64,000 nt of DNA from Gemmatimonadaceae bacterium (lineage in GTDB: Bacteria; Gemmatimonadota; Gemmatimonadetes; Gemmatimonadales; Gemmatimonadaceae), in assembly GCA_036273715.1 (NCBI GenBank), contig DASUHB010000011.1, positions 62,001 to 126,000 of the forward strand, written 5' to 3'. Below are positions 49,329 to 64,000 of the stretch, piece after piece. A program made the translations under genes and the position numbers. The first letter of the stretch is position 1; the number at the start of each line of letters is the position of its first letter. A model generated the notes under the pieces. The model was given only the letters and a program-made list of their open reading frames with translations. It ran no database searches and was not told the DNA's origin.

Positions 49329-50384
49329 TCACATCTCGTCGGGCGGCGGCGAGTCCGGCGGCGACGCTGACGGCGGCTCGGAGGGCGGCTGCTCCGACTG
49401 GCCGGCCGCGAGCAGCGCGGCGAGCGCATCCGTGTCGGCGGCGTGTTCCGCTGCGGCGTCGGCGAGGCGCAGCGCCTCCATGCGCCGCTGGTCGCGCCGC
49501 CGGCGTATCACCCACAGCGGCACGATCATGATGCCCAACAATCCGAGGATGAGCGTCATGTTCGCCAACACGGCGAGCGCGCCGTACCGGCGCATGGTAT
49601 TGGCGCGCCACTGCGCTTCGAATGCGTCTTCCGTAAGGCCGTAGGCGCGGCGAATCGCGACGTCCAACGATTGCGTCTGACGCCAGTACTGAAACAACAG
49701 CGCGAGGCCGCGCTGCCGGTCGAGCGAGGCCAGCTCGCTCACCGCTCGATACGACAGCGCGTACGCCGCATCGGCGCGCGATGCACCGCCCTGGAACTCG
49801 GCGTCTAACGAATCCAGCGATGGGACGCCGTGCAGCACGAGTCCGATGCTGGTGGTGAGCACGGCGTCGCGATCCCATTCGCCGGCGGCGACGCTCGCGT
49901 AGCCTTCATCGAACCATCGCGGCGGCAGATCACCCAGATACTCGTGCAGCGTGAGGTGTGCGAGCTCGTGCCGGAGCACTTGCATGGGATTGCCGGCGCC
50001 GGATCCGGCATTCGAGCCCTGCATCACGATGCGCCGTTGGTCCGGAATGGCGATGGCGGCGCCCCACTCCGGCGCGCCGGCGCCGGTCCACTCGCGGAAG
50101 CGTCGATGGTCCGGCGCGATGGCGATCAGCACGCGCTCCGTTGGGCGCGGCAACCCGGGGAACGTGTCGGCGGCGGTCGCATGGGCGAGCACGGCGCGCG
50201 CGAGCGTGATGTCGCGGGGATAGGCGACCACGGTGAATCGGCCCCGATCCAGCCGCACCGCGGGCGAGTCGATCTGCGCCGCCGCGGGACCGGCGACGAG
50301 CACCGCGGCGGTGGCGATCGCGAGCGCTAGGCGCTGCGCGCGGGCGTGCCTCCGTCCTCGATGTGCTTGAGCATCTCCCCGCAA
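49329..50384 (-). CDS. Membrane-anchored zinc metallopeptidase (peptidase MA-like)
   Basis: About 351 aa. The start is uncertain: TTG 50384 gives a basic stretch and the signal ALAIATAAVLVAGPAAAQ, all overlapping the TPR gene by 58 bp; further upstream the frame is only a shadow. The gluzincin site is LRHELAHLTLHEYL (HExxH) with a likely Glu ligand in WFDEGYASVAAGEW. A C-terminal helix (AVLANMTLILGLLGIMIVPLWVI) and a basic then acidic Pro/Ser-rich tail anchor it with the catalytic domain outside. Last gene of the che/mgl operon; substrate unknown. Confidence 0.78.
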   Translation of the reverse strand: MRGDAQAHRGRRHARAQRLALAIATAAVLVAGPAAAQIDSPAVRLDRGRFTVVAYPRDITLARAVLAHATAADTFPGLPRPTERVLIAIAPDHRRFREWTGAGAPEWGAAIAIPDQRRIVMQGSNAGSGAGNPMQVLRHELAHLTLHEYLGDLPPRWFDEGYASVAAGEWDRDAVLTTSIGLVLHGVPSLDSLDAEFQGGASRADAAYALSYRAVSELASLDRQRGLALLFQYWRQTQSLDVAIRRAYGLTEDAFEAQWRANTMRRYGALAVLANMTLILGLLGIMIVPLWVIRRRRDQRRMEALRLADAAAEHAADTDALAALLAAGQSEQPPSEPPSASPPDSPPPDEM

Positions 50385-51196
50385 CGCTTGCCCCATGGAT
50401 TGAACTTGTTGGCGGCCAGGCCCGCGCGCCACGTCTCGAGCGCGTCGTCCCGCTTGTTGTCGAACCAGAGCACGCGACCCAGCTCGTAGTACGCCTCGAT
50501 GAGGTTCGGACCGAGCGCGAGCGTTTTGCGAAAGAACGTCTGCGCGTCCTCGTACATTTCTCGTTCCGCATACACCAGACCGAGATAGAAGTGCGCGTAC
50601 AACGTGGCCTTGCGGTCGTTGTCCAGGCGAATGGCCTTGGACAGGTGCTCGATGGCTTCGCCGAAGATTTTCTTCTTGAGGCAGATGTAGCCGAGGTTGA
50701 TGCGCGCGAGCGAATTCGTGGGCTGGCGCATCAGCACCTTCTGGAAGTTGAGCAGCGCTTCGTCGTACTTGTCCTGCAGCATCTGCGCCCAGCCGAGCAG
50801 CGATTCCGTCTGCGGGTCGTTGGGCGAGAGCTCGAGCGCCTTGAGCAGCGCGCGCTCGGCGGCCTCGTGGTCGCCTAACGAGATGAGGCTCCAGCCTTTC
50901 TCGAGGTAAGTGGAGGCGCCGATGTGGTCGGCCATCACCGGGCGCTCGCCGCCGAAGGCGGGGGCGTTGGTGGCTTTGGCCGGCGCGCCGCCGCCCAGCT
51001 GCTTCCATCGATCGACGAGGCGCTTCACATCTTCGCGCAGCGCGGTGAGCTGCACGATCTCCTGCTCGACCTCCTTGTAGAGGGCGATGATGTCCGTCTT
51101 GATCGCGTCGCGCTCCGCGCCCGCCTCGGGACCATCGAGCCGTGCTTCGATGGCGCCGAAGCGCGTGCGGAAGGGTCGTCCGTCGACGTCAGCCAT
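50327..51196 (-). CDS. TPR protein of the che/mgl operon
   Basis: A 289-aa cytoplasmic protein. Residues about 1-75 are a coiled, acidic region (FGAIEARLDGPEAGAERDAIKTDIIALYKEVEQEIVQLTAL). Residues about 100-270 form four to five TPRs (for example DHEAAERALLKALELSPNDPQTESLLGWAQML). ATG 51196 has GGGAGGAGC upstream, inside the end of cheW; the longer frame upstream is a cheW shadow. Probably a scaffold for partners in the pathway. Confidence 0.85.
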   Translation of the reverse strand: MADVDGRPFRTRFGAIEARLDGPEAGAERDAIKTDIIALYKEVEQEIVQLTALREDVKRLVDRWKQLGGGAPAKATNAPAFGGERPVMADHIGASTYLEKGWSLISLGDHEAAERALLKALELSPNDPQTESLLGWAQMLQDKYDEALLNFQKVLMRQPTNSLARINLGYICLKKKIFGEAIEHLSKAIRLDNDRKATLYAHFYLGLVYAEREMYEDAQTFFRKTLALGPNLIEAYYELGRVLWFDNKRDDALETWRAGLAANKFNPWGKRCGEMLKHIEDGGTPARSA

Positions 51197-51677
51197 CCGA
51201 CGATGCTCCTCCCAGGCTCGCGCGGTGCAGCTCGAGGTGCTCGGTGGCGGAGAGCAGCCGCTCGATCTCGAGTAGAATGACCATGCGCCCATCGCGGTGC
51301 AGCAGGCCGCGCACGTAGTCCGCCTTGAGGCCGCGGAAGAGCGGCGGCGGCGGCGAGAGCTGGGCGGGGTCGATGTTCGCCACCTCGAGCACCGCGTCGA
51401 CCAGCGCACCGAGCCACTCGTCGCCGGCGCGGAACACGATGATGCGGACGCCCGCCTGGGGACGGTCCGTTTCGTCGAGACCGAAGCGGCGCCGCAGGTC
51501 GATCACCGGCACGACCCGCGACTGGTACTCGAGCACGCCCTCCATCCACGCCGGCAAGTTAGGCACCGGCGTCGGCGCGGCGTGGCGCAGCACGCGCTCC
51601 ACCGAAAGCACGTCGGCGGCAAAATGCTCGTCGCCCACGCGAAAGGTCACCACTTGCTGCGAAGTTGCCGCTGTCAT
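51189..51677 (-). CDS. cheW: CheW-like coupling protein (first copy)
   Basis: A 162-aa CheW domain protein: VVTFRVGDEHFAADVLSVERVLRH, PNLPAWMEGVLEYQSRVVPVIDLRRRFGL, and VILLEIERLL at the C-terminus, all in the normal order. ATG 51677 overlaps the stop of the second CheW-like gene (ATGA). CheW normally links receptors to CheA, but neither partner is encoded in this window. Confidence 0.92.
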   Translation of the reverse strand: MTAATSQQVVTFRVGDEHFAADVLSVERVLRHAAPTPVPNLPAWMEGVLEYQSRVVPVIDLRRRFGLDETDRPQAGVRIIVFRAGDEWLGALVDAVLEVANIDPAQLSPPPPLFRGLKADYVRGLLHRDGRMVILLEIERLLSATEHLELHRASLGGASSDG

Positions 51678-52129
51678 TCGGATTCTCCGGTTCGCGCGAC
51701 ACACGCATCGACCAGCGCGTCCGCGTCCACGATGCCCACCAGGTCGCCTCCTCGCCGCTCGACGCCGACCATGACGCCGCGGCCCGCCGCCGCGCGCGGA
51801 TGGTGCAGCCGCGACGCATCCACCATGATCACGTCCTCGACATCTTCGAGCGCGATGCCCACCGCGCGCGCTCCGCGCCGCAGCATCACCACGGCCGCGT
51901 GCCCGGACGCCGGGGACACGCCTAACGCAACCTCCGGCGCGAACACCGGCACGTACGATCCGCGGATCGCGAACACGCCCAGCATGCCCTCGGCCATGTC
52001 CGGCACCGCCTCGAGCGCCGGCATTTCCACCACCTCGATCGCCGCGCGGAGCGCGAGCGCGAACAGTTCCCCGCTCGCGCGGAAAAGCAGCATCTCGGTG
52101 GCCGGTGCGGCGTCCGTCGGCGCGGTCAT
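51674..52129 (-). CDS. CheW-like coupling protein (second copy, divergent)
   Basis: A 151-aa CheW domain: EMLLFRASGELFALALRAAIEVVEMPALEAVPDMAEGMLGVFAIRGSYVPVFAPEVAL. The internal part is shorter and less conserved than the adjacent copy (the DLR-type motif is changed to FAPEVAL). It ends VGIVDADALVDACV. Two different CheW proteins side by side suggest separate couplings, for example one to a receptor array and one to the TPR/Roadblock part. Overlaps cheB by ATGA. Confidence 0.85.
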   Translation of the reverse strand: MTAPTDAAPATEMLLFRASGELFALALRAAIEVVEMPALEAVPDMAEGMLGVFAIRGSYVPVFAPEVALGVSPASGHAAVVMLRRGARAVGIALEDVEDVIMVDASRLHHPRAAAGRGVMVGVERRGGDLVGIVDADALVDACVARTGESE

Positions 52130-53223
52130 CGCGGCTCCTCCGCGTGGTCGTGCGCCACGAGCTCCGCGATTGCGGCCGGCAGCGCGTCGAGCGGCAGGAT
52201 GCGATCGACGCCGCCGCCTAACGAAGCGGCGTGCGGCATGCCGTAAATGATCGATGATTCGCGGTCCTGGGCCAGGCCGGCGCCGCCCGCGTCGTGGATC
52301 GCGCGCACGCCCGCCGCGCCGTCGCGACCCATGCCCGTGAGCACTACGCCGATCGCGTGCGGCCCGAACACGCCTGCCACGCTGCGGAACAGCGGGTCCG
52401 CCGACGGTCTCACGCCCCAGATGGCCGGTGAATCGTCGAGCGCGATGGTCGGCGCACCGACGCCCTGGGCGCGCTCGACGCGCATGTGCCAGCCTCCGGG
52501 CGCGATGTACACGCGGTTGGTGCGCACCGCGTCGCCGTGCACCGCTTCGACCACCGGTACGCTGCTCTGCGCGTCCAGCCGCTCGGCGAGGCTGCGCGTG
52601 AACCCCGGCGGCATGTGCTGCACGACGAGGACGGCCGCGTCGAGGTCGCGCGGAAAGCGCGGAATGATTTCGGCGAGCGCGCGCGGACCGCCCGTCGACG
52701 CGGCGATGGCGACGACGCGCGTCGCAGCGCCGGCCGCGCGCGCTTCCGGCGCCGGCGTGCGTTGGGCCGGCGCATGGGGGCGCGCCAGCACTTCCACGCC
52801 CTGGAGATTCACCTGGTCGGCGGCGCGCAGCGCCTCGAGGAGCTGCTCGCGCACCGCGCCCAGGTCGAGGCTGATCGGCCCCGACGGCTTGCGCACGAAA
52901 TCCACCGCGCCTAACTCGAGAGCCCGGATGGTGAGGTCGCCCGCATCGCCGGTGGCCGCGCCGCTCAGCATGATCACGGGGCGCGGCGCCTCGCTCATGA
53001 TGTAGCCCAGCGCGCCGATGCCGTCGAGCTCCGGCATCTCGACGTCCATCGTCACGAGATCGGGGTTGAGCGCGTGCACTTTGCTCAGCGCGTCGCGGCC
53101 GTTGCGCGCGGTGCCGACCACACGGAAGCCGCCGGCGCCGTCCACCATCTCGGCCACGAGCTTGCGCATGAACGCGCTGTCGTCCACCACCAGCACGGTG
53201 CGCGGCGCCCTAGAGGACGACAT
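52126..53223 (-). CDS. cheB: Protein-glutamate methylesterase/deamidase CheB
   Basis: A 365-aa receiver-esterase. The receiver has DD14-15, phosphoacceptor D60 (VTMDVEMP) and K113. A 40-residue linker leads to the esterase with catalytic S177 (AASTGGP), H204 (QHMPPG) and D302 (GMGRDGA). All are intact. It removes methyl groups from chemoreceptors. It overlaps cheD by 14 bp. Confidence 0.96.
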   Translation of the reverse strand: MSSSRAPRTVLVVDDSAFMRKLVAEMVDGAGGFRVVGTARNGRDALSKVHALNPDLVTMDVEMPELDGIGALGYIMSEAPRPVIMLSGAATGDAGDLTIRALELGAVDFVRKPSGPISLDLGAVREQLLEALRAADQVNLQGVEVLARPHAPAQRTPAPEARAAGAATRVVAIAASTGGPRALAEIIPRFPRDLDAAVLVVQHMPPGFTRSLAERLDAQSSVPVVEAVHGDAVRTNRVYIAPGGWHMRVERAQGVGAPTIALDDSPAIWGVRPSADPLFRSVAGVFGPHAIGVVLTGMGRDGAAGVRAIHDAGGAGLAQDRESSIIYGMPHAASLGGGVDRILPLDALPAAIAELVAHDHAEEPR

Positions 53224-53692
53224 CGCCCTTCACCATGGAGCGGACCTGCACCTGGCCGGTCTCGATGTGAAAGAACACGCTGCGCCCGTGTCCGCCCCCG
53301 ACGTCCTCGCCGATGATGGGCAACCGCGCCTTGCCTAACGCATCGCGCGTGGCGAGGAGGTTGCGCTCGCCCATCTGGAGGCCGCCGGCCGGCAGGAGCG
53401 CGCCGAACATGCTCGCCCCGCCCACGAGGCGCGCCGTGATGCGCGTGGGCCGCGCGCCTAACTGTTGCATCTGCTCGAGCAGCATCGGCACGGCGCTGCC
53501 GGGAAACTTGGCGCGGTTCGTCCGGTCCTGCGCCAGGGATTCGCTCGGCAGCAGCACGTGCGCCAGCCCGCCCACGCGCCGGTCGGCATCGTGGAGCACG
53601 ATGGCGACGCACGAGCCGAGCCCGATCGTGGTCAGCATCGCGTCGCCCTGCGCCGCGGCCGCATCGGCCACCCGCACGCGAATTTCCCTCAC
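53210..53692 (-). CDS. cheD: Chemoreceptor glutamine deamidase CheD
   Basis: A 160-aa enzyme. GTG at 53692 overlaps the cheR stop (GTGA); the extra frame upstream lies inside cheR. TTIGLGSCVAIVLHD gives Cys28, and GGLAHVLLPS gives His45, the catalytic pair. The GASMFG and NLLATRDALG segments follow. It deamidates receptor glutamines and is usually controlled by CheC, which is not seen here. Confidence 0.93.
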   Translation of the reverse strand: MREIRVRVADAAAAQGDAMLTTIGLGSCVAIVLHDADRRVGGLAHVLLPSESLAQDRTNRAKFPGSAVPMLLEQMQQLGARPTRITARLVGGASMFGALLPAGGLQMGERNLLATRDALGKARLPIIGEDVGGGHGRSVFFHIETGQVQVRSMVKGDVVL

Positions 53693-54507
53693 TGCCGCCG
53701 GAAGATGCGCTCCCGCGGCTCGACGGCCTGGAAGCGGCTGCGCGCGGGACCGAACAACGTCTCGACCTTGCCCAACACGAGGAACCCGCCGGGGGCCAGC
53801 GCGTCGTGGAATTTCTGGAACAACGCCTCCTGCGTGTCGCGGTCGAAATAAATGAGCACGTTGCGACACGCGATGAGGTGCAGCTCCGGCATCGGCGGCG
53901 ATTCGTTCAGGAGATCGCGGTGCTCGAACCGCACCATCCGGCGCACCGCATCATGCACCACGTGCGGCGACGTGGGCGAGAAGTACCACTCGCGCAGCAC
54001 CGCCGGCGTGTCGGCGAACGCCGCCTCGACGTAGGCCCCGCGACGCGCCGCCTCGAGGCTCGCGCGATCGATGTCGGTTCCGATCACCGTCACCCTGCCC
54101 AACCGCGACGATTCGCCGCGCTCGCTCACGTACCGGTGCATCAGGATGGCGAGCGAATGCGCCTCCTCGCCGGATGCGCAGCCGGCGCTCCAGATGCGCA
54201 AGGCGGGATCGGGCAGCGACCAGAGCGCGGGCACGCACGCGCTCTCGATGGCGCGGAACGTCTCCCAGTTCCGGAACAACTTGGTGACGTTGATCGTGAG
54301 CGCGTCCAACAGGAGATCGTACTCGTGCGCGTCCGCATCGAGGACGCCCGCGTACTCCGGGTACGTGTGCACGCCGCGCGCACGCATCCGCACGGCGATG
54401 CGGCGGCGCAGACACTTCTCCTTGTAGCTGGCGCACGCGAAGCCGCGCTCGCGCGCGATCTTCGCCGTGAGCTGCTCGAACTCGCGGTCCATCGCCGCCT
54501 CGGTCAC
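53689..54507 (-). CDS. cheR: Chemotaxis protein methyltransferase CheR
   Basis: A 272-aa SAM methyltransferase: N-terminal helical domain (MDREFEQLTAKIARERGF), then IWSAGCASGEEAHSLAILMH (SAM site), VIGTDIDRASLEAARRGAY, and LIACRNVLIYFDRDTQ. GTG 54507 overlaps the TPR gene stop; ATG 54492 with GAGG upstream is an alternative start. It modifies receptor glutamates and forms an R-D-B set with the next two genes. Confidence 0.95.
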   Translation of the reverse strand: MTEAAMDREFEQLTAKIARERGFACASYKEKCLRRRIAVRMRARGVHTYPEYAGVLDADAHEYDLLLDALTINVTKLFRNWETFRAIESACVPALWSLPDPALRIWSAGCASGEEAHSLAILMHRYVSERGESSRLGRVTVIGTDIDRASLEAARRGAYVEAAFADTPAVLREWYFSPTSPHVVHDAVRRMVRFEHRDLLNESPPMPELHLIACRNVLIYFDRDTQEALFQKFHDALAPGGFLVLGKVETLFGPARSRFQAVEPRERIFRRQ

Positions 54508-56129
54508 GCCGGCAGACTCCGCACGAGGTCGAGATTCGCCCGCAAACTCTGGTTGTCCGGATTGAGCGCGAGCGCGCGCTCCCAGTACGCCATTGCCTGA
54601 TCCTTGTCCTGCCACTTGTAGCGGATGTTGCCCAACTTGCAGTAGACGTCGTCGCCTAACGCCGGGTTCAGCTTGATGGCGCGTTGGTACGCTTCCAGGG
54701 CTTCGTCGTATCGGCCGGCGCCGTAGAGCGCGTCGCCCAGGTTCTTGTGGAGCTGGGGCAGCGCGCCATTTTCCACGAGGCCGCGCTCCGCCGCCTGTCC
54801 GGCGGCGGAGAGATCGCCGCGGCGCTCGAACAGGACCGCCAGCGTGTTGCACAACACCGGACCGCGCGGGTGCGCCGCGAGGCCTTCGGTAATGAGCGTG
54901 ACGGCGCGATCGAGGTCGTCGCGCAACGCGGCGGCCAGCGCTGCGTAATGGAACCAGGCCGGCAGGGGCATCTTCTTCCCGAACAGCGCGCGCGCGCTGG
55001 TGAGCAGCTCGTCGGCCTCGGCGAGGTCGCCGCGCTTGAGCGCCAGCACGCCTAACGAAATACGCGTGCGCGGGTCCTCGGCGCCGCCGCGCCGGGCCGC
55101 CTCGGCCAGCGCTTCGCGCGACTCGTCGTGGTGGCCCAACCGCTCGAGCGCGTAGGCCAGATTGTGGAACACCGCCGCCCGGGCGCCGGGCTGCGCCGCC
55201 GCTTCGCGCAGCGTGAGCACCGCCTCGGACCATCGGCCTTCACGCATCGCCACCAACGACAAGAAAAATCTCGCCTGCACGTCGTTTTCCTGCAGCTCCA
55301 CGACGCGGCGGAATTCACGCGTCGCTTCCTCGTACATCCCCGTCTTGTAGAATGCCGCGCCCAGGTTGCGATGTTCCTCCACCCGCGCTTCGAGCGCCAC
55401 TTCGTCGACGGGCCGCGACTTCCCAATGATGTGCAGGAACCCCGCGGTCGCCAATCCGTAGAGCGCCTTCCCCACCTCGAATTCGCCGGCGCCGGATGCA
55501 TCGATCAGCGCGGTCACGTCGCGGCGCCCATCGATGAGCGGCAGCAGCTGCTCCTGCAACGGCGTCAGCTGCGCCTCGCTCGCCGCGAGGCGTCCGTCGT
55601 CGACGCCGAAAATGATGTCGAAGCTCGGGACCTTCTTCTCGATGAGACTCCACTCGTCCACCCGTCGCGCGCCCTCGAGCAGCAGCGACTCCGGGTTGAT
55701 CGAGACGAGGACGTCGTGCTCATCGGGCCGGATGTCGCCCTCGAAGCTGAATGTCCCCTGCGTCCACGTGAAGAGATAGTAGACCGCCTCTTCGATCTGG
55801 ATGCGGATGTAGCGGTGCAGTTCCTCGCGCGAGAGGATCTGCTGCTCGATGAGAATTTCGCCTAACCGCTTGTGGCGGTGCTGCGTGCCCTGGATGTCGA
55901 TGGCCGAGTCGAGCTCGGTCTGGGTGAGCACGGCGGCCTTGACCAGCATGTCGCCTAACCGGTCGCGGCGGTTCACGATCGATGCGTACGAGATGCGGCC
56001 GCGGTCGAAGTAGATGTAGCCGAAGTTGCTGCGGTCCGTGACGCTGAGACAGCCGGTCTTCTGTCCCATCGCCAGGAGCTGCAGCACGTCCGGCAAGCTC
56101 GCTTCGCGCAGACTGCCCTTGATCGCCAT
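54504..56129 (-). CDS. DUF4388-TPR protein (PatA-like N-terminus)
   Basis: A 541-aa protein. Residues 1-70 hold DUF4388 (GSLREASLPDVLQLLAMGQKTG...IYFDRGRISYA). Residues about 70-240 continue the helical/beta region of PatA-like regulators, ending DVTALIDASGAGEFEVGKALYGLATAGFL. About seven TPRs then run to the end. DUF4388 occurs with receivers and two-component pathways in Deinococcus, Myxococcus and cyanobacteria. It joins directly to the tandem ATPase gene (stop and start adjacent), so they probably form one complex. Confidence 0.87.
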   Translation of the reverse strand: MAIKGSLREASLPDVLQLLAMGQKTGCLSVTDRSNFGYIYFDRGRISYASIVNRRDRLGDMLVKAAVLTQTELDSAIDIQGTQHRHKRLGEILIEQQILSREELHRYIRIQIEEAVYYLFTWTQGTFSFEGDIRPDEHDVLVSINPESLLLEGARRVDEWSLIEKKVPSFDIIFGVDDGRLAASEAQLTPLQEQLLPLIDGRRDVTALIDASGAGEFEVGKALYGLATAGFLHIIGKSRPVDEVALEARVEEHRNLGAAFYKTGMYEEATREFRRVVELQENDVQARFFLSLVAMREGRWSEAVLTLREAAAQPGARAAVFHNLAYALERLGHHDESREALAEAARRGGAEDPRTRISLGVLALKRGDLAEADELLTSARALFGKKMPLPAWFHYAALAAALRDDLDRAVTLITEGLAAHPRGPVLCNTLAVLFERRGDLSAAGQAAERGLVENGALPQLHKNLGDALYGAGRYDEALEAYQRAIKLNPALGDDVYCKLGNIRYKWQDKDQAMAYWERALALNPDNQSLRANLDLVRSLPA

Positions 56130-58076
56130 CTACCGGAACTCCTCGATCGCCCGACCGGAGAGGTCGGGCCAGTCCCAGATCACCTTTTCTTCATCGAGGA
56201 ACATCGGGTCGGCGGGATGCCCGGTGCCGTTGTGCGCCATCGCCGGCGCGGCCAGCCTGCCCTCGAGCTCCTTGCGGGCAAAGCCCGCCGTGAGCGGCAC
56301 GCCCACGACGTCCGCGGCCTGCGTTAGCCGCTGCACGGTGCTCGTGATCTCGGAGACGCTTCCCACGGCGCGCGCCGCCAGATAGTCGACGAGCGATCGG
56401 TCGTGGCGCACATCGGCCGCGGCGAGCGACCGCGCGTACAGCCGCTCGCGCAGCACGTGATCCGGCGGCTGCATCTCGACCACGAGACCGCCCTCGAAGC
56501 GCGAGCGCAGCCGGTCCTCGAGGCCCTCGATCTGTCTGGGCGCGCAGCGCATCGACAACACGATCTGCCGGCCGCTCGCGTAGAGCGCATTGAAAATGTG
56601 GAACAGCTCTTCCTGCGTCCGTTCGGTGCCCGCGCATTCGTGCACGTCATCGATGATGAGCACGTCGACGACGCGATACCGCGCGCGCCACCGCTCGATG
56701 GCGCCGTCGCGGAGCGCGGCGATGAGCTCTTCGGTGAACTGGGCCGCGCTCACGCAGGCCACCGTGGTCGCGCCCCCGCGGAGGGCGATCAGCTCATTGC
56801 CTAACGCATTGAGGAGGTGCGTCTTGCCGACGCCGGCCGGCCCGTAGATCACGAGCGGGTTGTACTTCTTGCCCGGTTCTTCGATCACCGTGTCCGCGGC
56901 GTGCACGGCCAATTGGTTGGACGGGCCCACCTCGAAGTCCGAGCGCACGAAGTCGGGCGACGGGCCCGGCGGCGGCTCGGCCGCGCCTAACAGACGGGCC
57001 ACCGCGAGCTCGGCTTCGCCCACCCGCTCCGGGTCGCGGAAGAGATCCGACGCCGCCAGCGCCGCATCCAGCGCCCCGGCCTCGCGCGCCAGCGACTGGA
57101 GGCGCGCGACCGCGCTCTCGTACTGGCGCACCGTCGCCTCCACGTCGGGCTCCTCGGTGCTCTCGAGCGCGCGCTCGATCGCCGCGGTCAGGAACCCGGC
57201 TTCCCGCCAGCGCGACATCACCTCGAGCAGCCGGATCCGCCACGGCTCGATCTGTTGGGCAACCACCGCGCTCAGATCGCTCAGGAAGCTCGAGAACTCG
57301 CTGCCGCCGTTCCGGCTCAGCACCGCGGCCGCGCGCGGCGCCGCCACCGCCGCGCCGGCCTCCGGCCGCTCGCCCAGCACGTCGCGCACGTTCTGCGGCG
57401 TCACGGCGCGTTCGCCTAACGTCTGCGACGCGATGAGCCGGTTCAGCGCGCCCTGCAGCTCGCGCACATTGCCGAACGGGATGCGCGCCAGCTCGTCGAG
57501 CACGCCTGCCTCGAACGTCGCGCCGCGCTCGTCGCACTTGAGCCGCACGATCGCCGCGCGGGTCTCATAGTCGGGCGCGCCGACGTCCACCACGAGCCCG
57601 CCCGAAAATCGGGAGATCAACCGCTCATCGAGATCCGCGATTTCCGTCGGGGGACGATCGCTCGTCAGGACGATCTGCCGTCCGGCCCGCTGCAGGCCGT
57701 TGAACAGCCGCAGCATTTCGCTCTGCGTCTCGCGGCGCCCGGCCAGAAACTGCACGTCGTCCAGCAACAGCACGTTGACGTTCTGGTAGCGTTCGCGCAG
57801 CGCGTCCACCGCGCTCGACGCGACACTCGCGTTGAGCTCGTCCACCAGCTCGTCGACCGTGGAATAGGCAACCTTGAGATCGGGCTGCAACTGCCGGCCG
57901 AGGTGGCCGATGGCCAACAGGAGGTGCGTCTTGCCCAACCCCGATCCACTGTAGATGAACAGCGGGTTGAACGCAGCGCCCGGCGCCTGGGCCACGGCGC
58001 GCGCCGCCGACACGGCGAGGCGGTTCGCCGACCCGACGATGTAGTTCTCGAAGCGGTAGCGCGCGTCCAACTCCAC
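56130..58076 (-). CDS. Tandem DnaA-type AAA+ ATPase without a DnaA DNA-binding domain
   Basis: A 648-aa protein made of two DnaA domain-III ATPases. The first is at about 8-235: RFENYIVGSANRLAVSAARAVAQ, Walker A GSGLGKTH 44-51, Walker B LLLDDVQF 103-110, and sensor 2 arginine R205 in GNVRELQGAL. The second is at about 378-600: VGPSNQLAVHAADTV, Walker A 412-420, IIDD 474-477, but SVSEI replaces the sensor-2 Arg region. A helical linker joins them. DnaA domains I, II and IV (HTH with the DnaA-box signature) are absent. The tail DEEKVIWDWPDLSGRAIEEF is distinctive. Embedded between mglA and the DUF4388-TPR gene, it is presumably a signalling or scaffold ATPase, not a replication initiator. Confidence 0.88.
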   Translation of the reverse strand: MELDARYRFENYIVGSANRLAVSAARAVAQAPGAAFNPLFIYSGSGLGKTHLLLAIGHLGRQLQPDLKVAYSTVDELVDELNASVASSAVDALRERYQNVNVLLLDDVQFLAGRRETQSEMLRLFNGLQRAGRQIVLTSDRPPTEIADLDERLISRFSGGLVVDVGAPDYETRAAIVRLKCDERGATFEAGVLDELARIPFGNVRELQGALNRLIASQTLGERAVTPQNVRDVLGERPEAGAAVAAPRAAAVLSRNGGSEFSSFLSDLSAVVAQQIEPWRIRLLEVMSRWREAGFLTAAIERALESTEEPDVEATVRQYESAVARLQSLAREAGALDAALAASDLFRDPERVGEAELAVARLLGAAEPPPGPSPDFVRSDFEVGPSNQLAVHAADTVIEEPGKKYNPLVIYGPAGVGKTHLLNALGNELIALRGGATTVACVSAAQFTEELIAALRDGAIERWRARYRVVDVLIIDDVHECAGTERTQEELFHIFNALYASGRQIVLSMRCAPRQIEGLEDRLRSRFEGGLVVEMQPPDHVLRERLYARSLAAADVRHDRSLVDYLAARAVGSVSEITSTVQRLTQAADVVGVPLTAGFARKELEGRLAAPAMAHNGTGHPADPMFLDEEKVIWDWPDLSGRAIEEFR

Positions 58077-58077
58077 C

Positions 58078-58710
58078 TCAGCGACTCCCTGCGTGCGCGG
58101 TCGACGGCGTCGCCGGACTGCCCGATGTGCTCAAACGGCGGAGCACGAGCTCCGAGATGCCGCGCAGCGTTTCGAACACGCCGGTGCCGTGGAGGGCGCC
58201 GGCCGGGAATGCGGGCACGCCGCGGAAGTTGAGCGCATCGCCTAACGTGGCCGTGTCGTGGATGAGCTCCGGGGGCAGGTCCTGCTTGTTGTACTGGAGC
58301 ACGAGCGGCACCGTGCGCACGTCCATGCCGTGCTCGGCGAGATTCGCGTGCAGATCCTGCATGCTCTCGACGTTCTCGTCGAGTTGGCGCACCTGGCTGT
58401 CGGCGACGAACACGACGCCATCGGCGCCCTGGAGCACCAGCTTTCGCGTCGACTGGTAGTAGACCTGGCCCGGCACCGTGTACAGCTGGAAGCGCGTGTT
58501 GAACCCCGAGATCGAACCCAGGTCGAGCGGCAGGAAGTCGAAGAACAGGGTGCGGTCCGTTTGCGTGGCCAGCGAGACCATGGTGCCCTTGCGATCGTTA
58601 GGCACCTGACCGTAGATGTAGTGCAGGTTGGTCGTCTTGCCGGACCGGCCCGGCCCGTAGTAGACGATCTTGCACGTGATCTCGCGCGTCGCGTAGTTGA
58701 CGAGAGGCAC
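58078..58710 (-). CDS. mglA: MglA-type small Ras-like GTPase
   Basis: A 210-aa small GTPase of the MglA group: G1 [13 protein letters not shown] at about 17-29, G3 [28 protein letters not shown] (about 78-105), G4 NKQDLP 141-146. MglA switches cell polarity in Myxococcus, with MglB (Roadblock) as its GAP. Two Roadblock genes lie directly upstream in the operon, giving the expected pair. GTG start. The C-terminal 20 residues are Ser/Pro-rich, with no lipidation site. Confidence 0.93.
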
Positions 58711-58717
58711 AGGCGGC

Positions 58718-59233
58718 TCAGGCTGGAGGACGTGTCGACTGTGGATCGCCGGACACCGGCTGCTGCGCGCGTCCGAACAGGACGGCGAGGCTGCGATTCA
58801 GGTCGTGCTCGAAATTGCCGTCGAGCGCCGGGCCCGACTCCGCCGCCGGCGGCGCGGCCTGTCGGAGCGCGTCGCGCAGCTCGCGGAAGTACACCTGCAC
58901 CAATCCCAGCGAGCTTTCGGCGTCGAACGCCGTGAGCAGCACCAGCGCCCCGCGCGCCGTGGGCGCCTCGGCGATGTAGACCTGCCGCTCGCGGCCGGCG
59001 TGGTACAGCTCGCGGAAGGGATGGCCGTCGAGCTCCTTGCCCAACTCGCCCGCCGACGCGTGGATGGCGGCGCCTAACGCACACGCCGCCATCACGTCGA
59101 CGGCCCGCGTGAACCCGAACTGCCCGAGGACCTGGCCGCTCGGATGCAGCAGGAGCGCGAACTGGACGCGGGCATCGTCCACGAATCGCTGGAGCGGCGC
59201 TTCCACCCACGCCTCGGCGACGTGGGCTCTCAC
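58718..59233 (-). CDS. Roadblock/LC7-domain protein (MglB-like)
   Basis: A 171-aa protein from GTG 59233, overlapping the previous Roadblock stop (GTGA); upstream frame is a shadow. The fold is seen in [58 protein letters not shown], then [20 protein letters not shown]. The C-terminal 50 residues are a loose acidic tail ([21 protein letters not shown]). It likely binds MglA as an MglB-type GAP or adaptor. Confidence 0.85.
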
Positions 59234-59574
59234 ACCGCCTCCAGGGCGTGCAGCATCGCGCTGCGGATGAGGCCGATATGAGCTTTCGGCTCGGCGAGCG
59301 TGGCCAGCACCAGTCCGTCGCGGCCGACGGCGCACACGTGCCCGTGCTCGGCCTCGAGCTGGAGGAAGCCGACCGCCGCCAGCCCGGCCGCATCGGTGCC
59401 TAACCGTGCCCGCCGGTAGAGGGACGCCACCAGCGCCCCCACCACGCCGGCCTCGATGCCTACCTGCACGTCGGCGTCGACGATGATGCCGTCGGCCTCG
59501 CTCACCAGCAGGCAGCCGAGGACGCCGCGCTGCCGCGTCACCGCCGTGAGCGCGTCCGTGTAGGGCGTGCTCAC
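59230..59574 (-). CDS. Roadblock/LC7-domain protein
   Basis: A 114-aa single-domain protein from GTG 59574, overlapping the TPR-Roadblock stop. ALTAVTRQRGVLGCLLVSEADGIIVDADVQ opens the Roadblock fold, followed by EAGVVGALVASLYRRA and GLVLATLAEPKAHIGLIRSAM. This compact form is closest to MglB. Two adjacent Roadblock proteins could form a heterodimer on MglA. Confidence 0.87.
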   Translation of the reverse strand: MSTPYTDALTAVTRQRGVLGCLLVSEADGIIVDADVQVGIEAGVVGALVASLYRRARLGTDAAGLAAVGFLQLEAEHGHVCAVGRDGLVLATLAEPKAHIGLIRSAMLHALEAV

Positions 59575-60407
59575 GCCACCTCCGTGAGCCACGCTTCGGC
59601 GCGCTGCACGCAGCGGTCGAGGACCCGGCGCACCAGACCCAAGGGCAGCGTGCGCGCCGCGGCGACCAGCGCCAGCGAATCTTCGAGCACGGGCCCGAGC
59701 GCGATCGTCGCGACCTCGGTTTCGTACACCACGGCGCGCCAGGCGCCTAACTGCAGATGTTTCACCGTCCGGTCGGCTTCGTCGCGGACGCCGGTCAACG
59801 CGGCGCCGATGTCCTGCGCGACGTCCTCGCCATCCGCGGTGACGTACGCGCCGGCCGTCACCAGCCCGTCGCCGTCGAGCAGCAGCGCCGTCTGCTGCCC
59901 GTCGCCGAGGATTTCGGCGAACAGGCGGCGCGCCTCGTCCTCGACGCGGCGCTCGGCCGCGGCGACCCGCTCTCCGTTAGGCGCGCTCCCGGCAGGGGCG
60001 CCGGTGGTGTAGCGCACGAGGCGCCGCACCATCCGCAGCGCCGTCTCCACCGCCGCGTCGCCATGCTCCGCCGCGAGCCCCAAGTGGTGCTCCGCTTCCT
60101 CCAGCCGGTGCTGCTTGTACAGCACGTAGCCCAGTCCTTTGCGCGCCCCCACGTGGTCGGGCGCGAGGCGCAACACCGCCTCCCACTCGGCGGTCGCCTC
60201 CGCGAGCTCCCCGCGGTCCACGCGCACGCGCGCCAGGAGATCGTGCGCGTCGGCGTTGCCGCCGTGGCGCTCCACGCCGCGCGACGCGACGCGCAGCGCC
60301 AGGTCGAGCTGCGCGCCACGCCGCAGCGCCTCGCCTAACTGAAGGAACACCATGCTCGACGGGTCCCGCGCCAGCTCTTCGCTCAGACGGCGAATGTCGT
60401 CAGACAT
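59571..60407 (-). CDS. TPR protein with C-terminal Roadblock-like domain
   Basis: A 278-aa protein from ATG 60407, overlapping the DUF4388 gene stop by 8 bp; the frame upstream is its shadow. Residues about 5-120 are TPRs (MVFLQLGEALRRGAQLDLALRVASRG; ADAHDLLARVRVDRGELAEATAEW). Residues about 165-275 look like a Roadblock module: QTALLLDGDGLVTAGAY, IGAALTGVRDEADRTVKHL, ATIALGPVLEDSLALVAA. The fusion links TPR scaffolding directly to the GTPase-regulator fold. Confidence 0.82.
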   Translation of the reverse strand: MSDDIRRLSEELARDPSSMVFLQLGEALRRGAQLDLALRVASRGVERHGGNADAHDLLARVRVDRGELAEATAEWEAVLRLAPDHVGARKGLGYVLYKQHRLEEAEHHLGLAAEHGDAAVETALRMVRRLVRYTTGAPAGSAPNGERVAAAERRVEDEARRLFAEILGDGQQTALLLDGDGLVTAGAYVTADGEDVAQDIGAALTGVRDEADRTVKHLQLGAWRAVVYETEVATIALGPVLEDSLALVAAARTLPLGLVRRVLDRCVQRAEAWLTEVA

Positions 60408-61545
60408 CCATCCGCTCCTTGAGCACGCTCGACAGCCGCGTCGCCGCGGCGACGGACTCGCGGACTGCGGCCGCATCGGCACCGTCCGGCGCCAGTCGCA
60501 GATAGCGATCCCAGCTGGTGAGCGCTTCCTGGTAATCGCCGCGCCACGCCGCGCAGCACCCGGTTTCGAGATGCACCGCCGGCTCCAGGGCGTCCGCCTG
60601 CAGCACGCGGCGCAGCTCTTCCTGCGCCTCGTCGTGCCGGCCCGCCCGCGTGAGCGCGCGGGCGAGCACGAGCCGCGGCAGCGTCGCTCCGTCCAGGCCC
60701 GCCACCGCCAAGCGCGCCTCCGCCACCGCCCGGTCGCACTCGTTGGCGCGCAGCGCCTCCCGCGCCCGGTCGAGATGCGCCTGCGCCTGCGCCGCCGCCG
60801 GAGCGCCCGAGCCGTTCGCCCCCGTGTCGCGCAGCGCCACGACACCCGTCGTGACGAGCCCGTACGCGATGCGCGCCACGTCGAACTCGCTCCGGGCAAG
60901 CTCGGACGCGATCGCGCGCAGATCGCGCGCGCCGTCGATTTCCGACAGCACTTCCCACTCGTTAGGCAGGAGATCGAGCTGCGCCGCGTGGTCGTCCAGC
61001 ACCGCACACAACGATGGCACGACGCCCAGATGCGGGATTTTTCCCTCGATGCGCGACCACTCGTCGATGCGCCGCGCGCCTTCCATGAGCAGCGACTCCG
61101 TGGAGATGCGGATGCTCGCTTCGGCCGGGATGCTCGATACCTCGCGCTCCTCGAACGAGAAGAAGCCTTCGCGCCAGGACATGAGCTCGAACACGACTTC
61201 TTCCACCTGGAAGCGCACCTGCCGCTCGAGCTCGCGGCGCGTCAACGCGCCCGACTCGACCAGGATCTCGCCCAACCGGCGGGCGTCGCCCGACCTGGTC
61301 TGCGCGTCGCGCGCCCGGGCGAGATCGCCCTCGGAGATCTTTCCGGCGCGCAGCAGCAGCTCGCCTAACGGATGCGGGTTGCTGCGGATGGCGGCGTAGA
61401 TGACGCCGCCGCGGTCGAAGTACACGGTGCCCTGGTTGTCGCGCAGCAGCGACGTCACCGTGAGCGTACCCGTCTTCCGGCTCAGGTCCAGCAGCTGGAA
61501 GACATCGTGAATGCCCAACTCGCGCAGCGGCCCTTCGATCGCCAT
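60400..61545 (-). CDS. DUF4388-domain protein with TPR-like tail
   Basis: A 381-aa paralogue of the 54504-56129 gene: MAIEGPLRELGIHDVFQLLDLSRKTG...VYFDRGGVIYAA at the N-terminus, then LGEILVESGALTRRELERQVRFQVEEVVFELMSWREG. A winged region follows at about 205-240 (LPNEWEVLSEIDGARDLRAIASELARSEF). Only two or three TPR-like pairs follow, from about 250. The ATG shares one base with the stop of the large TPR gene (TGATG). Confidence 0.85.
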   Translation of the reverse strand: MAIEGPLRELGIHDVFQLLDLSRKTGTLTVTSLLRDNQGTVYFDRGGVIYAAIRSNPHPLGELLLRAGKISEGDLARARDAQTRSGDARRLGEILVESGALTRRELERQVRFQVEEVVFELMSWREGFFSFEEREVSSIPAEASIRISTESLLMEGARRIDEWSRIEGKIPHLGVVPSLCAVLDDHAAQLDLLPNEWEVLSEIDGARDLRAIASELARSEFDVARIAYGLVTTGVVALRDTGANGSGAPAAAQAQAHLDRAREALRANECDRAVAEARLAVAGLDGATLPRLVLARALTRAGRHDEAQEELRRVLQADALEPAVHLETGCCAAWRGDYQEALTSWDRYLRLAPDGADAAAVRESVAAATRLSSVLKERMDV

Positions 61546-64000
61546 CAGGCCACCTCCTGGCGGCTGCGGAAGATGCGCAGCAGATCGGCAGCCGTCCGCG
61601 CCTCGCGCTGGGCGCGGCGCGCAAATGCGCTGTCGGGCGCCAACTCCACGACCTCGTTCCAGAGCGCGATCGCCTCGCGGTAGCGGTGCCGGTCGGCGAG
61701 GATCACGCCCTGCAGCAGCAGCGCCCCTGGATGCTTCGGGTCGAATCGCAGCACGCGGTCGACGGCCCGCGCCGCGTCGGTGCTCCGATTGGCCTCGAGC
61801 AGCGTCTCCGACAGCGACAACAGCCCATCGATGTTGTACGGGTCGCGCTGCAGGAGGTCGACGAGCGGCGTGATTGCATCTTTGGCGCGGCCGAATCGCC
61901 GCCGCACCTCGGCCAACGCCAGCGTCGCCTCGACGTAGGTCGGCACCGCGTCCAGCGCAGCCAACAGCTCGTCATCCGCGCCCGGACCATCGCCGCGTTG
62001 GGCGAGCAGTAACGCGAGGTCGTAGTGGACGACCGCGAAATCCTGATCCAGGTCGAGCGCGTTGCGATACGCGAGGATGGCGCCGTCCACATCCCCGGCG
62101 GCTCGAGCGATGTCGCCGATCTGTTTGAGCACATCGGCGCGGGCCGGCGCGAGACGCTGCGCCTGTCGCAGCAGCTCGAGCGCGGCCTCGGACTCGCCGG
62201 TTTCCGCCCGGGCGCGCGCCACCAGCAGCAGCGACTCGACGCCGTGCGGATCCGCCTGCAGCAGCCGCTCCGCCACGTCGCGCGCTTCCGAGGCGCGGTT
62301 CAACATGAGCAGCGCGCGCGTCTCGCCTGCCAGCGCACGCGGCACCGTGCCGTTGACGCTCCGCGCCTGGCGGTAGCGCTCGAGCGCTTCGCCGTGGAAT
62401 CCCTGGCGCGCGAACAGATCGCCCAACATGGTGAGGCCCGTCGCCGCGTCGCCGCCTCTGCCTAACGCACGGTTGATCTCTGCCGCGGCGCGGTCCAGCA
62501 TGCCCTTGGCGAGGTACTCGGCGCCCATGGCGTACGGATTGTCCAGCGGCACCACCGGCGACCGCACCGGCGTGTGCTGCTTGAGCTCCGAGAAGAGCGT
62601 GTCGAGCGATTTCGGGTCGAACGAGAACGTCTCCACCGCCCCGTCCGCGCGTTGCGCGCCCTCGAGATCCGGCGCGATCGACAGGTCGGGATCCTCGTAC
62701 TCGAGATCGATTGCCAGCTCGAACTTCTGCGCCACGTAGAACGGCTCGAGCTCGAGCCCGCGCTTGGTCGCGCGCAGCGCCCCCTCGAAATCGCCGAGAT
62801 TCGAGAGCGTGAAGCCGAGGTTGTAGTGCGCTTCGGCATAGTTGGGACGCGCTTGGATCGCGCGGCCGAACGCGTTGCGCGCGTCCTCGAATTTCTTGAG
62901 CTCGCCGAGCACCAGCCCGATGCCGTTCCACGCGACCGCCTGCTCCGGGAACACGCCTAACACTTGCCGGTACGCCTCGAGGCTCAGCTGCAGCCGCTTC
63001 CCCTTGAACAGGAGCAGGGCCAGGTTGAGCCACGCTTTGACGAACGCGGGGTGCTTGGAGAGCGCGGTGCGGAATTCATCGATCGCACGCTCCGAGTCGC
63101 CCTGGTGGTAGTGCGCGACGCCAAGGTTGTTGTGCGCGATGGCGTACTCGGAATCCAGCTCCACCGCGCGCGCGTAGCTCGCCGCGGCGTCGGCGAGCTT
63201 TCCCGCCTGATGGAGCGCGACGCCCCGCTCGCACCACAGCTTCGGGCTGTCCGCCTGCTCGGTGATCAGCCGATCGTAAAGCTCCGCGGCCGTCGCCGCA
63301 TCGCGCTTGAGCAGATGCACCTCGGCCATCGCCTGCAGCACGAGCCGGCGATCTTCGCCGCGGTCGAGCGCCAAACGATACTCGCGCAGCGCCTCGGCGT
63401 AGTACGCCTTCTGGCGGAACGCGAGACCCAGGTTGTAGTGGGCGAGTTGGTCTTCTTTCGCCACCGCGAGCATCTGCTGCGAGCGGCGCAGTTGGCGCTC
63501 GGGCAGCAGCTCTTCATACTTGGCCGGGTTGTACCGGTCGATCGACAGGTTCGCCTGCGCGCGCGACAGCGATGGGTTGAGTTGAATGGCACGCTTGGCG
63601 GCGGCGGCGGCGTCCTCGTGGCGGCCCATGTCGCCCAGCACGAAGCCCAACAGATAGTGCGCGTCGGCGTTGTCGGGGCTGAGCGCGATGGCGCGGCGGA
63701 GCGCGGCCAGCGATTCGTCGTTGAGGCCGCGGTTGTACAGCACTTCGCCCATGTAGAAGTTGCAGAGCGGGCTGTCCGGTTCGATCTCGAGCGCCTTGGC
63801 GAACCACTGCTCGGCGGCGTCCAGGTCGCCGCCCGCCTTCTCGGCCAGGCCTAACTGGACCATGGCGCCGACGTCGCGCGGGTGGTACGACAGCAGGGCC
63901 GTGAATTCGGCCACCGCCTCGCGCGAATCGCCTAACGACGCGTACGCGCGGCCCAGCTCCCAGCGGGCGTCGCGGTCATCGGGACGCTGTCGCAGCCGTT
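61545..64000 (-). CDS. Large TPR-repeat protein, partial (cut by right edge)
   Basis: At least 818 codons, open to the window edge: the frame continues above GTG 63914 with TPR-like codons (DARWELGRAYASLGDSREAVAEFT), so the true start lies outside. More than fifteen TPRs are visible, separated in the middle by a non-repeat acidic segment (about 425-475 counted from GTG 63914). No signal peptide or catalytic motif in the visible part. As first visible gene of the operon it probably provides the main scaffold. Confidence 0.88.
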   Translation of the reverse strand, partial: RLRQRPDDRDARWELGRAYASLGDSREAVAEFTALLSYHPRDVGAMVQLGLAEKAGGDLDAAEQWFAKALEIEPDSPLCNFYMGEVLYNRGLNDESLAALRRAIALSPDNADAHYLLGFVLGDMGRHEDAAAAAKRAIQLNPSLSRAQANLSIDRYNPAKYEELLPERQLRRSQQMLAVAKEDQLAHYNLGLAFRQKAYYAEALREYRLALDRGEDRRLVLQAMAEVHLLKRDAATAAELYDRLITEQADSPKLWCERGVALHQAGKLADAAASYARAVELDSEYAIAHNNLGVAHYHQGDSERAIDEFRTALSKHPAFVKAWLNLALLLFKGKRLQLSLEAYRQVLGVFPEQAVAWNGIGLVLGELKKFEDARNAFGRAIQARPNYAEAHYNLGFTLSNLGDFEGALRATKRGLELEPFYVAQKFELAIDLEYEDPDLSIAPDLEGAQRADGAVETFSFDPKSLDTLFSELKQHTPVRSPVVPLDNPYAMGAEYLAKGMLDRAAAEINRALGRGGDAATGLTMLGDLFARQGFHGEALERYRQARSVNGTVPRALAGETRALLMLNRASEARDVAERLLQADPHGVESLLLVARARAETGESEAALELLRQAQRLAPARADVLKQIGDIARAAGDVDGAILAYRNALDLDQDFAVVHYDLALLLAQRGDGPGADDELLAALDAVPTYVEATLALAEVRRRFGRAKDAITPLVDLLQRDPYNIDGLLSLSETLLEANRSTDAARAVDRVLRFDPKHPGALLLQGVILADRHRYREAIALWNEVVELAPDSAFARRAQREARTAADLLRIFRSRQEVA

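Follow-up and report, generated by a model that had tools for sequence, protein, structure and literature searches.

A gene for a DnaA-like ATPase lies among chemosensory and small-GTPase genes in the genome of a Gemmatimonadaceae bacterium, and this locus raises the question of what such a protein does there. DnaA is regarded as a replication initiator, and the known polarity switches in bacteria are GTPases and response regulators. The window (the whole stretch of DNA that was analyzed, 64,000 nucleotides) contains the gene at 56130-58076. These coordinates had been given in a preliminary description of the window and were exact; the gene lies on the minus strand. The gene, here called DnaA2, and its parts are as follows.

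56130..58076, minus strand: tandem DnaA-like AAA+ ATPase DnaA2 (648 aa; GTG start at 58076, TAG stop at 56130-56132)
57369..58076, minus strand: module 1, residues 1-236, a DnaA domain-III AAA+ module in which Walker A/B, sensor 1, Arg finger, and sensor 2 are present; a polar residue, not Val/Ile, at position 211 of the ISM
56979..57305, minus strand: helical linker, residues 258-366, without a Pfam match; retained in single-module homologues
56259..56969, minus strand: module 2, residues 370-606, a second DnaA domain-III AAA+ module; Ser575 in place of the sensor-2 Arg in the window protein
56133..56195, minus strand: C-terminal tail, residues 628-648, E-K-x-x-W-x-W-P...R-x-x-E
56139..56144, minus strand: GAGGAG, codons 645-646, probable Shine-Dalgarno sequence for the coupled downstream gene, based on codon bias and sequence

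The Pfam family Bac_DnaA covered both halves of the protein in two stretches (combined E 1.2e-106). An AlphaFold2 model of DnaA2 from 42 homologues (mean pLDDT 87.8) showed two AAA+ domains with a helical linker between them. The fold was compared by structural superposition and Foldseek; module 1 matched B. subtilis DnaA (8btg_B) over 237 residues (Z 31.1, rmsd 1.7). For module 2, the match was Aquifex DnaA (1l8q) over 234 residues (Z 29.5, rmsd 3.4). Module 1 was 43% identical to B. subtilis DnaA. The linker matched no Pfam family (best E 0.09) and was hardly covered by the fold searches. Domain III formed the N-terminal start of DnaA2 in every homologue examined, showing that DnaA domain I is absent, and domain II is likewise absent. 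Domain IV was also missing: Bac_DnaA_C was unmatched in the Pfam search up to E 0.01, and the domain IV motif RDH[ST]T was present in 0/54 homologues. The Pfam, model, and motif results thus bear out the preliminary description of two domain-III modules without domain IV, and the structure model contained no DNA-binding domain, the presence of which would have spoken against the reading in that description. DnaA2 therefore shares with the DnaA initiator (TIGR00362) the domain-III AAA+ fold and the Walker, Arg finger, box VII, and sensor motifs, but differs in lacking domains I, II, and IV, in having two AAA+ modules and a linker and tail of its own, in its motility operon, and in forming separate clades.

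The DnaA2 score on the TIGR00362 equivalog model was 488.3 bits against a cut-off of 343.9, which is exceeded because the scores of two copies are summed. Automatic pipelines will consequently label the protein "chromosomal replication initiator DnaA". The same score, together with the decay of modules in some lineages, could be taken to mean that DnaA2 is a misannotated or decaying DnaA duplicate without a dedicated role. However, DnaA2 is found class-wide, its synteny is constant, its module-1 motifs are intact, and its tail is invariant, as described below, which makes this explanation very improbable.

We searched a sample of 298 Gemmatimonadota genomes for DnaA2. DnaA2 was present in 165 genomes, absent from 121, and unclear in 12, with the positive genomes assigned by hand using E-values and coverage, and all 32 neighborhoods contained the PATAN-TPR gene. 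Six of ten Gemmatimonadetes-titled genomes carried the gene, one copy of which was broken across two contigs. Across the genome families, DnaA2 was present in f1-f6 and f9, and f10 showed a copy at a contig end followed by the PATAN-TPR gene; families f7, f8, and f11 yielded no copy. The search of 241 genomes from other phyla gave no DnaA2. Neither the tandem form nor the module-plus-tail form was found in 50 mixed-phyla genomes, in 78 genomes of one other phylum, or in 113 genomes from the phylum of a Myxococcales record. DnaA2 is a real gene, and these searches place it in a conserved family that spans the class Gemmatimonadetes. Literature searches returned no account of a DnaA-like protein in a motility or chemosensory system of such a kind, and this class-wide DnaA-type AAA+ family outside replication is apparently undescribed.

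A true dnaA gene is encoded elsewhere in the window's own genome. In a tree of 83 domains, three clades were separated, namely module 1 with the single-module forms (100/99), module 2 (100/94), and true DnaA (99/90), and the tree left the closest pair among the three undecided. The true-DnaA clade included E. coli, B. subtilis, and T. maritima, for which the E. coli DnaA sequence was entered by hand and the other two were taken from PDB alignments. These three separate clades show that the DnaA2 modules are old paralogues rather than recent copies of the local dnaA. Layout, gene position, separate clades, and the true dnaA elsewhere all agree with the earlier statement that DnaA2 is not a replication initiator.

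A DnaA-type AAA+ protein without a DNA-binding domain is also known in Hda, and DnaA2 could be an Hda-like regulator that pairs with true DnaA by the AAA+ interface and promotes ATP hydrolysis by DnaA or blocks DnaA assembly, thereby coupling replication to surface sensing. The DnaA Arg finger and box VII Arg are kept by both modules in most homologues, Hda structures rank right after DnaA among the fold matches (Z about 20), and DnaA2 scored 162.6 bits on the Hda model TIGR03420. This score is, however, below the Hda cut-off of 194.8, and the clamp-binding motif (QL[SPD]L[FLP] or Q.[DS][LM]F) was present in 0/54 homologues. DnaA2 also differs from Hda in being longer and usually tandem, and it always occurs in a motility or PATAN-TPR context. 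Furthermore, no DnaA2 was found in families f7, f8, and f11, although their DnaA presumably needs control too. We consider a role of this kind unlikely.

The genes around DnaA2, including those between it and the window end, are listed below.

51189..51704, minus strand: CheW
51674..52129, minus strand: CheW
52126..53223, minus strand: CheB
53210..53755, minus strand: CheD
53689..54540, minus strand: CheR
54504..56129, minus strand: PATAN (DUF4388)-TPR protein with MshEN-like c-di-GMP motif (541 aa), the next gene in 32/32 neighborhoods
58078..58710, minus strand: MglA-type small GTPase (210 aa) with Arf/small_GTP matches
58718..59335, minus strand: putative Roadblock-domain protein; Robl_LC7 at 21.8 bits, just below the 23-bit Pfam cut-off, in a gene conserved in the operon
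59230..59592, minus strand: small conserved operon gene (120 aa) without a Pfam match
59571..60404, minus strand: TPR and weak Roadblock protein (Pfam)
60400..61545, minus strand: DUF4388 (PATAN)-TPR protein (381 aa)
61545..64000, minus strand: large TPR protein extending beyond the window, with CheC, CheA, CheY, and CheW upstream of its gene

The mglA stop codon ends 1 nt ahead of the DnaA2 GTG, and the PATAN-TPR ATG begins 0 nt after the DnaA2 TAG, which is the gapless placement between mglA and a DUF4388-TPR gene that had been noted before. Genes at the DnaA2 homologue loci were coupled, with stop/start overlaps in most. The typical order was LspA, RluD, CheW, CheY, CheA, CheC, TPR, DUF4388-TPR, TPR-Roadblock, small gene, Roadblock, MglA, DnaA2, PATAN-TPR, CheR, CheD, CheB, CheW (CheW), TPR, and peptidase. 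The PATAN-TPR gene was located directly 3' of DnaA2 in 32/32 neighborhoods, and mglA directly 5' in 26/32. The six loci without adjacent mglA all belonged to family f5, where RluD was immediately 5' of DnaA2 in five and the contig started in one; the block from che to mglA is gone between RluD and DnaA2, and the DnaA2-PATAN-TPR pair is retained. A location next to dnaN or oriC in relatives, which the preliminary description had named as contrary to its proposal, was not seen, with the PATAN-TPR context in 32/32 loci and true dnaA elsewhere. Its core idea of a signaling ATPase stands, and across the whole class the gene lies in an MglA/chemosensory operon with putative Roadblock genes.

The MglA motifs GxxxxGKT and VPGQ were conserved across 17 sequences. 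Another MglA was encoded elsewhere in 10/10 f5 genomes tested. This second paralogue (L236:8610-9284 and L237:8632-9294), 49-60% identical, was located near dnaX, pgsA, and dnaJ-like genes, names read from the sequences rather than from profiles, in both genomes inspected (the window's own and one f5 genome), and it was the only close MglA in most f5 genomes tested. The 120-aa gene at 59230-59592 overlaps its neighbors, is conserved in many loci, and possibly encodes a third Roadblock-like protein. At the downstream end, a Peptidase_MA_2 protein (window 49329-50270) was kept in most loci, including the f5 loci without che and mgl genes.

We also examined which motility machine accompanies DnaA2. 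The window's own genome showed a match (E 4.4e-54) to PilM_2, the one pilus gene covered and taken as the marker of type IVa pili, and FliM was not found in it. In the sample, PilM was strong in 154/165 DnaA2-bearing genomes vs 98/121 DnaA2-less genomes, and FliM was present in 61/165 vs 17/121, in counts that ignore relatedness. Nine DnaA2-bearing genomes, drafts in most cases, showed neither PilM nor FliM. The association of PilM with DnaA2 is thus modest, and both associations are positive. Flagella are clearly dispensable for the presence of DnaA2. A requirement for flagellar function was ruled out by the FliM-negative genome of the window itself.

These counts also bear on a role as a flagellar or general chemosensory-array factor, in which DnaA2 would organize the Che array or its inheritance with no special pilus link. 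Most loci have DnaA2 between CheC/CheA and CheR/CheD/CheB, and the positive FliM association agrees with such a role. FliM was, however, missing in 104/165 DnaA2-bearing genomes, the window's own among them, and f5 keeps DnaA2 and PATAN-TPR without adjacent che genes; a low probability is therefore given to an array factor. PilB, the pilus extension motor, is a binding partner of PATAN domains in Synechocystis (PMC10519157; also PMC7690835). In M. xanthus, SgmX, a protein with 14 TPRs, is recruited by MglA and in turn localizes PilB (PMC11580455). Because the window's own genome has PilM and no detected FliM, type IV pili are the likely target, and DnaA2 is best read as a DNA-free DnaA-type ATP switch for them in an MglA/PATAN/TPR chemosensory pathway, as judged from the gene content.

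Next, we examined the conservation of the two modules. The Walker A Lys of module 1 was kept in 28/28 tandem proteins and in 8/8 single-module forms. The corresponding counts were 24/28 and 8/8 for the Arg finger, and 27/28 and 4/8 for the sensor-2 Arg. In module 2, the Arg finger was kept in 26/28, the box VII Arg in 25/28, and the Walker A Lys in 23/28. The preliminary description had emphasized that module 2 lacks the sensor-2 Arg. This was correct for the window protein (Ser575) but not for the family, since Arg occupied the position in 32/42 homologues and was missing only in the close relatives of the window protein and a few others; sensor-2 loss was thus ruled out as the defining trait of module 2. 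The "active plus regulatory ring pair" built on that loss is not supported, because the loss is lineage specific, two families have no module 2 and most of f5 has an ATP-dead one, and module 1 is decayed in one protein.

Families f6 and f9 encode single-module proteins of 392-400 aa (about 395) that consist of module 1, the linker, and the tail without module 2. The true DnaA proteins of f5 and f6 cluster in the tree, yet f5 has module 2, so that f6 appears more likely to have lost module 2 than to preserve an ancestral single-module state. Walker A and B were missing from module 2 at five f5 loci. The Arg finger of module 2 was retained in all four f5 loci checked (L045, L046, L048, and L052; the fifth Walker-less locus is L096), as if the finger alone mattered. 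The mirror image of f5 was found in L050:8696-10543 (G031), where module 1 has lost the box VII Arg, Arg finger, and sensor 2, and module 2 is intact. About a dozen more genomes matched DnaA2 only from about residue 250 onward and may resemble L050. In L095:1609-4614 (G134), the module-1-plus-linker frame extends to 987 aa over the PATAN-TPR-coding region in another frame, by frameshift or fusion. The parts always retained were the fold and Walker A Lys of module 1, the helical linker, and the tail E-K-x-x-W-x-W-P. The conserved core is, on these comparisons, module 1 with the linker and tail, and module 2 is best read as a helper dropped by some lineages.

The pattern of module loss also concerns a possible ssDNA-handling ATPase, whose module 2 would bind ssDNA via a DnaA-type ISM, e.g., when DNA is taken up via type IV pili. 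Position 211 of the ISM is hydrophobic in module 2 (I/V in 24/28), like that of true DnaA (Val/Ile in 19/19), but polar and often His in module 1. Module 2, which would carry the activity, has decayed in f5 and does not occur at the loci of f6 and f9, and none of the identified operon genes is a DNA-processing gene. The ISM residue R245 was dropped as a test for ssDNA binding, since just 7/19 true DnaA proteins, used as a control, have Arg there, and the residue is therefore undiagnostic. An ssDNA-handling function is considered improbable.

The C-terminal tail DEEKVIWDWPDLSGRAIEEF was present in the window protein and conserved, with the consensus E-K-[VI]-[VI]-W-[DE]-W-P-D...R-[LI]-[IV]-E-[ED] over the last 21 residues. 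Among 53 homologues, E630 and W636 were found in 53/53, W634 in 47, K631 in 46, and P637 in 44, and the spacer ahead of the tail was poorly conserved. Synonymous sites varied at codons E630, K631, P637, and R642, indicating that selection acts on the tail protein. Codon 645 was GAG in 51/53, the GAG/GAA ratio at E630 was 37/16, and GAGGAG lies immediately ahead of the downstream ATG. Because of the bias at codon 645 and this GAGGAG, the E-E part of the tail probably doubles as the ribosome-binding site of the downstream gene. The GAG bias, as expected of a Shine-Dalgarno sequence, weakened the case for E-E as a pure docking motif. No further copy of the tail motif was found in the window's genome. 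In a fused model of DnaA2 and PATAN-TPR (read through the stop codon with TAG as Q), the tail was disordered with pLDDT < 50; with its unpaired alignment and fixed tether, this model is a weak test. The terminal peptide that had been proposed as a docking motif is thus a conserved protein motif, for which docking is plausible; the disordered tail in the fused model and the fit of the E-E codon bias to a ribosome-binding site do not favor that proposal.

Altogether, with middling confidence, we propose that DnaA2 is a DnaA-derived AAA+ protein out of replication, whose ATP-dependent assembly serves as a switch in a chemosensory/MglA-GTPase pathway for the positioning or activation of type IV pili. 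By analogy with DnaA, module 1, alone or with the Arg finger from module 2, would form ATP-bound DnaA-like oligomers. CheA/CheY and MglA, as suggested by the neighbor genes, would alter the oligomer state. The oligomer would hold the PATAN-TPR effector, perhaps via the W-x-W-P tail, and PATAN-TPR, tuned by c-di-GMP, may contact the extension motor PilB like the Synechocystis PATAN proteins, again by its gene context. Complete ATPase motifs of module 1 in most homologues, the lack of a DNA-binding domain, and the constant coupling to PATAN-TPR support this reading of DnaA2 at the sequence level. Points against a pilus switch are the modest association with PilM, the nine DnaA2-bearing genomes showing neither PilM nor FliM, the six f5 loci without adjacent mglA, the correlation with FliM, and the fused model without a sign of binding between the tail and PATAN-TPR. 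A bolder version, which we regard as doubtful, is that an initiator ATPase was taken over as a polarity/motility switch, with DNA-free ATP-driven oligomers that would switch the motor of type IV pili in response to chemosensory/MglA input; these may co-assemble with true DnaA and tie replication to surface behavior. A class-wide DnaA-like family without a DNA-binding domain and tied to MglA/PATAN/chemosensory genes would be a clear instance of an initiator AAA+ motor reused for signaling, and bacterial polarity control would gain an ATPase step.

Two known systems share parts with this locus. The MglA/Roadblock/SgmX/FrzS polarity system of M. xanthus with Frz likewise combines an MglA GTPase and a Che system with large TPR proteins, and its Roadblock proteins have putative counterparts here, but no DnaA-like protein appears in the available sections of its description (PMC11580455), whereas the loci described here have PATAN-TPR and the DnaA-like ATPase as constant components. 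The cyanobacterial phototaxis regulators PixG, PixE, and LsiR (PMC7690835 and PMC10519157) share a PATAN domain downstream of chemosensory systems, which in their case acts on PilB. These regulators are PATAN-receiver proteins, in contrast to the DnaA2 neighbor, which combines PATAN carrying an MshEN-like insertion with TPRs beside an ATPase. That neighbor scored 131.7 bits on PF14332 (cut-off, 25) and 44.3 bits on the MshEN c-di-GMP motif model NF053729 of NCBIfam (cut-off, 38). The MshEN-like c-di-GMP motif, predicted by motif, was found in 20/21 PATAN-TPR homologues, and there are hints that the helical insertion of PATAN may be a c-di-GMP receptor. The DUF4388 protein at 60400-61545 also showed a repeat like the MshEN motif of 54504-56129, as judged by eye.
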